NCBI RefSeq assembly: GCF_002206625.1
Contig: NZ_NGUP01000003.1
Location: 394,968 to 458,967, forward strand
Source of the DNA: Polynucleobacter campilacus
Lineage (GTDB): Bacteria; Pseudomonadota; Gammaproteobacteria; Burkholderiales; Burkholderiaceae
Direction of reading: 5' to 3'
Length of the DNA stretch: 64,000 bases
Position 1 is the stretch's first letter. Each line of letters starts with the position of its first letter. The notes under the pieces were generated by a model. The model worked only from the letters and a program-made list of their open reading frames with translations, searched no databases and was not told the origin of the DNA. Position numbers and translations under genes: made by a program. Of the stretch, positions 5,408 through 6,988 are shown piece after piece.

Positions 5408-5836
5408 TTAAATCTCTAACGCTTTTGGCTGTTGAGCCGCATGCGGATGATTGGCGTCGCCATAGACTTTTAATTTCTTAATCATGGCATAGCCTAGTGG
5501 GCCTTTTGGCAACATACCCTTCACAGCCTTCTCCAAAGCACGGCCTGGGAAACGGTCTTGCATTTTGTCGAAGTTAGTCGAGCTAATACCACCTGGGTAT
5601 CCGCTGTGACGGTAATAGATCTTGTTTAAGCCTTTTGTGCCTGTGACACGCAGCTTAGAAGAATTAATGACAACAATAAAGTCGCCAGTATCAACGTGTG
5701 GTGTGTATTCAGGCTTGTGCTTGCCGCGTAGACGGTGTGCCACTTCACTGGCGACACGACCGAGGACTTTGTCCGTAGCGTCAATCACGAACCATTCATG
5801 CACTACCTCATGGGATTTTGCAGAAAAAGTTTTCAT
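5408..5836 (-). CDS. rplM: 50S ribosomal protein L13
   Basis: [29 protein letters not shown]; paired with rpsI. Confidence 0.97.
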
Positions 5837-5997
5837 GATTTCTCAAATTGTTATAGTCAACAAAAAAATTACTCCAACCAAATAACGTCCACCTTGGCCC
5901 TGCTTATGTTTGCAAGCTCGCAGATTCTGAAATCTAACTGGTAAAACAATCACCGCTGACTAGTTCGGTAATTCAGTAAAGCCTTGAATTGTATCCT

Positions 5998-6026
5998 AAA
6001 AAAAGCCCAGGAACGAGTCCTGGGCT
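5998..6026 (-). terminator. Rho-independent terminator of the putative sRNA
   Basis: Perfect 9-bp stem agcccagga/tcctgggct (6004-6012 / 6018-6026) followed on the minus strand by a T7 run. Confidence 0.8.
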
Positions 6027-6099
6027 GGAATCCACCTTTGTTTGGGTGGAGGAGACACTGGGAGGTAAGTCATAGTCTTGTATAAGACTGACTGCCAAT
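5998..6099 (-). ncRNA. Putative small regulatory RNA with two anti-Shine-Dalgarno motifs (approximate ends)
   Basis: On the minus strand, TTGCAT-N17-TACAAT (6134..6106) precedes a hairpin AGTCTT-ATAC-AAGACT, then a segment with CCUCCC and CUCCUCC, then a small CCACC/GGTGG stem, then terminator AGCCCAGGA-CTCGT-TCCTGGGCT-TTTTTT. No convincing ORF. Confidence 0.55.
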
Positions 6100-6105
6100 A
6101 CGGTT

Positions 6106-6134
6106 ATTGTATCGAGAACGATGGTGCGATGCAA
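6106..6134 (-). promoter_or_regulatory. Candidate sigma70-type promoter for the putative sRNA
   Basis: -35 TTGCAT (6134-6129), exactly 17-nt spacer, -10 TACAAT (6111-6106) on the minus strand. Confidence 0.5.
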
Positions 6135-6256: not shown

Positions 6257-6679
6257 ATGGAATGTCGAGTATCTTGGTTAGGTAATGGGGGAATGGCTTT
6301 TTCTGCTGAAACCGGCAGTGGTCACCTGGTCAATATGGACGGCGCCCCTGAAGCTGGGGGGAGAAACTTGGCGCCCAGACCAATGGAGCTTCTTTTAGCT
6401 GGAGCGGGGGGCTGCTCTGCATTTGATGTGGTTTTAATCCTACAGAGGTCTCGCCAGGCCGTCAGCGGCTGCGAGGTCACCCTTCAAGCAGAACGGGCCA
6501 CAGAAGACCCTAAAGTCTTTACCAAGATCAATTTGCACTTTAAGATCAAAGGAAAAGATCTAGATCAGGGAAAGGTGGATCGTGCGGTGAAGCTTTCACA
6601 TGAAAAGTACTGCTCAGCCACCATCATGCTAGCCAAAACAGCTGAACTGACTTACAGCATCGAAGTCATTTCGGAATAA
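6257..6679 (+). CDS. OsmC/YhfA-family protein
   Basis: RPMELLLAGAGGCSAFDVV and CSATIMLAKTAELTY are typical OsmC-family cysteine motifs. Confidence 0.9.
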   Translation: MECRVSWLGNGGMAFSAETGSGHLVNMDGAPEAGGRNLAPRPMELLLAGAGGCSAFDVVLILQRSRQAVSGCEVTLQAERATEDPKVFTKINLHFKIKGKDLDQGKVDRAVKLSHEKYCSATIMLAKTAELTYSIEVISE

Positions 6680-6681
6680 GT

Positions 6682-6988
6682 GCAGAGTCAATCGATAAGC
6701 CGGATTCTGTCGCCTAGATTTGCATCTAGGGGCAATCATTCCTCTAGGCCGGCAGTTACCTGACGGCTCAAGCTCCCTACCCGCAGACTCAGCGGGACGC
6801 CTCATCGCCTGCTTACTTGGGATTGCTCCGGGTGGAGGTTACCGCGTTTCACCGTAACTAAATACGCTCGTCTCTGTGGCCCTATTCCTCACGTTGCCGT
6901 GGATGGCCGTTAGCCATCACCCTTCCCTATGGAGTCCGGACTTTCCTCCCCCTCAATAAAGAGGCGGCGATTGCCCAATTGACTCTGC
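6682..6988 (-). ncRNA. rnpB: RNase P RNA (bacterial class A)
   Basis: Minus strand contains GGGGGAGGAAAGTCCGGACTCCATAGGG, CACGGCAACGTGAGGAATAGGGCCACAGAGACGAG and GACAGAATCCGGCTTATCGATTGACTCTGC. The ends pair as GCAGAGTCAAT / ATTGACTCTGC. Confidence 0.96.

Follow-up and report, generated by a model that had tools for sequence, protein, structure and literature searches.

The gap between rplM and an OsmC-family gene of Polynucleobacter campilacus was proposed in the initial annotation to hold a minus-strand small RNA (sRNA) with anti-Shine-Dalgarno (anti-SD) motifs. The question raised by this locus was to which family the RNA belongs, what may control its promoter, and on which genes it may act. 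The window, that is, the whole stretch of DNA analyzed, comprised 64,000 nucleotides, and the features of the locus are listed in Table 1. As the rplM ORF spans 5408-5836 and the OsmC-family ORF 6257-6679, the gap amounts to 420 bp, and the described location of the unit agreed with the ORF coordinates. TTGCAT-N17-TACAAT, the 5' hairpin, CCUCCC, CUCCUCC, the CCACC/GGUGG stem, and the T7 terminator were all read directly at the positions in Table 1. The absence of a convincing ORF was also upheld. The overlapping candidate for a small protein, a 53-codon ORF starting with TTG (5973-6134), was rejected because stops and one-base indels interrupt it in relatives.

Table 1. Features of the minus-strand unit and its neighbors, in positions of the window.
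Feature	Position	Strand	Evidence and remarks
rplM	5408-5836	-	ORF; downstream neighbor, synteny in same-genus loci
Intrinsic terminator, 9-bp stem and T7 run	5998-6026	-	Stem 6004-6026
RF02278 core, double-hairpin RNA	5997-6057	-	Covariance model; alignment of 32 relatives
Hairpin 1, UCCACC/GGUGGA, loop CAAACAAA	6031-6050	-	Arms 6045-6050 with 6031-6036; folding, covariation
Seed UGUCUCCUCCA	6047-6057	-	GUCUCCUC invariant in 32 relatives
CUCCUCC anti-SD motif	6048-6054	-	Letters
CCUCCC, extra CU-rich anti-SD motif	6060-6065	-	Single-stranded or weakly paired
5' hairpin AGTCTT-ATAC-AAGACT	6074-6089	-	Letters, folding; conserved in part
-10 box TACAAT	6106-6111	-	Letters; TASAAT-type -10 conserved; 17-nt spacer from -35
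PhaR-operator-like palindrome TGCATCGCA (full site TTCTTGCATCGCACCAT)	6125-6133	-	Overlaps -35 box
-35 box TTGCAT	6129-6134	-	Letters; TTGCRY kept in place in genus main clade
OsmC-family gene	6257-6679	+	ORF; divergent neighbor, deeply conserved synteny

The family of the RNA was determined by an Rfam search. RF02278 is the Rfam family "Betaproteobacteria toxic sRNA", with a curated gathering cut-off of 50 bits. The window matched this model over its full length (5997-6057, minus strand; model 1-64 of 64) with 53.6 bits and E=5.9e-8, and the unpaired GUCUCC tail conserved in the family was followed by hairpin 1 and a terminator hairpin with a U run. Other Rfam families, namely, anti-hemB, SorX, and SdsR, were matched below the cut-off only and were discarded. 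Relative to shuffled sequence, the 61-nt core folded with z = -4.6 and the whole transcript with z = -3.8. Matches to RF02278 occurred in 48 of 61 relatives, and order-wide in 252 of 399 genomes and 121 of 164 genera, compared with none of 14 control genomes, a betaproteobacterial distribution. The minus-strand unit is a new member of RF02278, as confirmed via the covariance model, and the membership suggested earlier was thus substantiated by a search result above the gathering cut-off and by order-wide conservation. Transcription of the RNA at this locus is predicted, and its start is expected near 6099 from the promoter position. A promoter consensus scan did not list TTGCAT-N17-TACAAT, which is unremarkable on consensus alone; the promoter call is supported by its conservation in relatives rather than by a consensus match. 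Directly past the OsmC-family gene, an RNase P RNA (RF00010, 242.5 bits) was observed on the minus strand of the window at 6680-6986.

In the alignment of 32 diverse copies, GUCUCCUC was invariant. Hairpin 1 had 99.4% of cells paired and 13 double-sided changes, a degree of covariation matched by none of 500 shuffles. Genus-wide, the core, the terminator, the -10 box, and the stretch CTTGCRTTGCACCAT were kept, and the flanking DNA drifted. On the minus strand, UGUCUCCUCC leads into the hairpin UCCACC/GGUGGA downstream of CCUCCC. Conservation in relatives, on which the initial annotation had made its proposal depend, held for the promoter, seed, hairpin 1, and terminator. It held only partly for the 5' hairpin, whose arm AAGACT became AAGAGA or AAGATA in several relatives. 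CCUCCC varied (CCACCC, CCTTCC, CCGCCC, and CTCCC) and was missing from loci beyond the genus main clade. CCUCCC is a genus-level feature outside the RF02278 model. The exposure claimed for both anti-SD motifs applied to CCUCCC, which was unpaired or weakly paired, but CUCCUCC was just half exposed, since its final UCC begins hairpin 1.

The promoter of the RNA contained a sequence that may name its regulator. The -35 box lies inside TTCTTGCATCGCACCAT, which has 2 mismatches in 17 positions to YTKNTGCRNYGCANMAR, the PhaR consensus of R. eutropha, with the nine-base core exact. This consensus was worked out independently, and its authors accepted ≤3 mismatches (PMC12849132); the site is within that limit. 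The S. meliloti PhaR motif shares the same core (PMC12542648). Within the 64-kb window alone, significance of the full consensus was rejected, with 9 two-mismatch matches found and 16 expected; as such sites are common by chance, a single site proves nothing and the argument rests on comparison. The strict box, defined as TGCRNYGCA and counted up to 150 nt upstream of RF02278 loci, was present upstream of 116 of 146 loci, compared with 14 of 141 downstream windows. Moreover, when palindromes were enumerated blind, TGC-N3-GCA ranked first by far (119 upstream vs 18 downstream). Among main-clade loci of the genus, the TGC and GCA half-sites were invariant and the three middle bases variable. The RF02278 copies of C. 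gilardii, C. pauculus, and C. agavae carry the box, and in Bordetella and Achromobacter loci (L129, L097, L106, and L141), TGCAACGCA or TGCATCGCA was observed over the -35 of a long transcript. The box was lost from the promoter in one same-genus clade (L004 and L006-L009) and was lacking in several Burkholderia paralogues, and in one genus (g10) it was degenerate despite the presence of PhaR.

The box was then compared with the presence of the phaR gene, which was scored by PF07879 among genomes carrying RF02278 loci. The strict box occurred at 48 of 63 loci in PhaR-bearing genomes and at none of 30 in PhaR-lacking genomes; because the genomes are related, independent events are fewer than these locus counts. 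When collapsed to families, the box was found in 12 of 14 with PhaR and in none of 8 without (p=1.4e-4). The same contrast appeared within one genus, where one genome (G197) had both PhaR and the box and another (G307) had neither. The operator was thus kept in PhaR-bearing relatives and absent without PhaR.

The genome of the window has phaR itself (PF07879 match on contig C5, 74372-74551), preceded by two boxes, and boxes also precede the three phasin genes examined; the box word was far commoner in this genome than its reversed form. Phasin promoters are the textbook target of PhaR. Known targets carry the same operator as the sRNA promoter, and in relatives the relaxed core was present in 24 of 30 phasin promoters. 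Further intergenic boxes of PhaR type were observed in the genome of the window (C1:452154, C3:74954, C1:75357, C1:51133, C7:6936, and others). They precede, among others, malonyl-CoA-decarboxylase-like, nuoA-like, and TRAP-type binding protein genes, named from translations only, and are candidate members of the PhaR regulon. In two same-genus genomes (G014:C1:1549793 and G020:C49:10845), PhaR was accompanied by a second paralogue that is more divergent.

Some phasin genes were associated with the RNA in another way. A double-hairpin RNA with GUCUCCUC, ending in a terminator, was observed 12-62 nt past the phasin stop codon at loci of the same genus (L054, L062, and L065) and of other families (L036 and L043). 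Several of these phasin 3'UTR double hairpins were weak RF02278 matches. Within the genus, the double hairpin occurs in four genomes (G005, G006, G027, and G029) of the clade noted above, in which the copy beside rplM no longer has the PhaR box; where examined, the promoter of the phasin gene in these genomes carries the box.

The word TGC-N3-GCA could instead be bound by another regulator or merely reflect -35 context, in which case the RF02278 sRNA would not be controlled by the state of the stored bioplastic PHB, which PhaR senses. Such a reading draws on the overlap of the box with the -35 box (TTGCAT) in the genus and in Bordetella-type loci, where its conservation could partly be promoter conservation, and on the 15 of 63 loci in PhaR-bearing genomes without the strict box. 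However, the distance of the box from the RNA varies from approximately -30 to -140 across loci, and in Cupriavidus the box is just upstream of the -10 and not over the -35. The box is also gone from all 30 PhaR-lacking loci, which need promoters as well, and the same word precedes phaR and the phasins, which argues against a different regulator. This explanation was therefore considered unlikely, and control by PhaR was preferred.

The genes on which the RNA may act were sought by the complement of its seed, TGGAGGAGACA (11 nt), which had 110 sites in 41 same-genus genomes. Approximately one third of them were the RNA gene itself; 58 sites other than the RNA gene were fetched, and 41 of these adjoin an ORF start codon. 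In a stricter test for genuine starts, 32 of 58 sites passed, compared with 0 of 20 for the control word TGGAGGAGCAA (p=3e-6). A reversed-word control (4 vs 110 sites) was set aside, as a fairer control word keeping GGAGGAG gave 48 sites in total. Because of these 48 sites, TGGAGGAGACA is only modestly in excess overall; its position gives the stronger signal, and reliance was placed on the positional test only. Seed-complementary sites at translation starts exceeded the control word, and their location at the Shine-Dalgarno positions of genes lends support to the trans-acting anti-SD role proposed at the outset.

According to Pfam, the genes at these sites included TctC, Peripla_BP_6, FAD_binding_5, TPP enzyme, and MFS families. 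Those recurring across species encode TctC receptors of three kinds, a Peripla_BP_6 protein resembling LivK, the FAD subunit of a CO/xanthine dehydrogenase, a TPP enzyme similar to glyoxylate carboligase, and permeases; four more sites were located approximately 105 nt ahead of a further TctC gene. In the genome of the window, a TctC gene on contig C2 holds the one perfect site at a start codon. The targets predicted for B. cenocepacia likewise concern transport and catabolism of carbon compounds (PMC5688073). At six loci (L350, L354, L356, L363, L369, and L371), TGGAGGAGACA immediately preceded what looks like a terminator hairpin (AAACCACC..GGTGGTTTTT), and these sites are possibly a 3'UTR sponge for the RF02278 RNA.

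The family name, which reportedly derives from Kimelman's toxicity screen of 2012, suggests instead a toxin-like RNA that would arrest growth through general anti-SD pairing. The toxicity that citing papers describe for B. cenocepacia members in E. coli and the attenuated growth upon ncS27 overexpression are in line with this. However, the conserved seed is longer than the SD core and fits particular genes, and B. pertussis S17S is non-toxic in exponential growth (PMC11722255). Such a role was regarded as very improbable. "Toxic" is a label from the overexpression of relatives in E. coli and should not be taken as a description of function; physiological toxicity is not supported.

The majority of RF02278 copies adjoin an OsmC-family gene, and many are also close to rplM. 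Several genomes have 4-9 copies at several places, as was observed in one genome (G043) and its relatives of family f8; in that genome, two copies are 0.4 kb apart (G043:C1:1646160 and 1646538). A cis-acting 5' leader or attenuator of the rplM-rpsI operon, suggested by the position of the unit on the same strand directly upstream of rplM and by rplM synteny in same-genus loci, was dismissed as scarcely credible, given that a strong terminator stands approximately 160 nt ahead of the rplM start codon, that rplM was within the fetched flank in just 46 of 148 order-wide loci with an OsmC-type neighbor being commoner, and that many loci and the extra copies in multi-copy genomes lie away from rplM, leaving no constant cis association.

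Taken together, the RF02278 RNA is likely repressed by PhaR and made when PHB accumulates, and it would then repress substrate uptake. The repressor PhaR dissociates from DNA to bind PHB granules (PMC12849132, PMC12542648). In the proposed mechanism, PhaR would bind the TGCRNYGCA palindrome across the -35 box and keep the sRNA promoter repressed. Under carbon excess, PHB granules would form and titrate PhaR onto their surface, the sRNA and phasin promoters would be freed together, and the RNA would accumulate. Since PhaR leaves DNA for granules and the operator lies across the -35 box, the RNA is predicted to be off without PHB and on in carbon excess. Its single-stranded 5' segment UGUCUCCUCCA would pair with the Shine-Dalgarno regions of selected mRNAs, chiefly those of periplasmic substrate-binding proteins and catabolic enzymes, and block their translation. 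Synthesis of uptake proteins would fall, and carbon intake would drop while the store is full, as an overflow brake. The RNA is probably Hfq-dependent. We infer the binding of PhaR to the sRNA promoter, its repressing sign, and the translational repression from sequence comparison; PhaR can also activate, as with phaP3 in R. eutropha (PMC12849132). PhaR control and the uptake targets are new proposals with strong comparative support. In B. cenocepacia, double-hairpin RNAs were 4- to 8-fold more abundant in glucose medium, and growth slowed when ncS27 was overexpressed (PMC5688073); both responses would fit a PHB-linked brake.

With somewhat less assurance, it seems probable that being the RNA arm of the PhaR regulon was the ancestral role of the whole RF02278 family, which would act in betaproteobacteria as a carbon-overflow brake on uptake once the PHB store fills, analogous to MmgR, with the PhaR link kept by the promoter operator or, in some lineages, by the phasin 3'UTR double-hairpin RNA. 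The PhaR-type operator at its promoter puts the likely biological role of the anti-SD sRNA in a different light. It would provide the RF02278 family with a regulator, an input signal, and a role in physiology and, if true, would tie carbon storage to uptake control across a very large bacterial group. In the literature, the regulator of RF02278-type RNAs is stated as unknown (PMC5688073), and a review describes PHB riboregulation in Cupriavidus necator as undeciphered (PMC8401924); no stated link between RF02278 and PhaR was found in the literature searched. Because the copies of the relatives C. gilardii, C. pauculus, and C. agavae carry the box, the role is testable at once in R. eutropha (C. 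necator).

Among known systems, S. meliloti MmgR (PMC12542648, PMC8401924) is also a short trans-acting RNA whose promoter has a PhaR/AniA operator, repressed by PhaR and tied to PHB. MmgR differs in being alphaproteobacterial and in its published target effect on phasins, and its likeness to RF02278 is claimed as a functional analogy only. A likeness to the N. meningitidis NmsR siblings was noted in a citing paper (PMC5688073), which describes them as CU-rich hairpin RNAs acting on metabolism genes. The B. cenocepacia RF02278 members ncS03, ncS05, ncS27, and ncS62 (PMC4603805, PMC5688073) share the GUCUCCUCC seed and the two hairpins, the second being the terminator. In the window, however, the loop of hairpin 1, CAAACAAA, has no second CCUCC, and CCUCCC lies upstream of the core instead. 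No link to PhaR was stated in the papers examined, and a common upstream motif of three B. cenocepacia copies is reported in the main text without being identified (PMC5688073). B. pertussis S17 has the same core and seed, with the core at the 3' end of a long transcript, and its proposed targets include transporters (PMC11722255), like the seed-site genes of the window RNA. RNase E is reported to trim S17 to a UGUCUCC end. S17 differs in being Bvg-dependent, and its authors postulate an unnamed promoter repressor (PMC11722255). As related Bordetella loci have a PhaR-type box over the -35, PhaR would also be a candidate for this repressor if RF02278 is an ancestral arm of the PhaR regulon.
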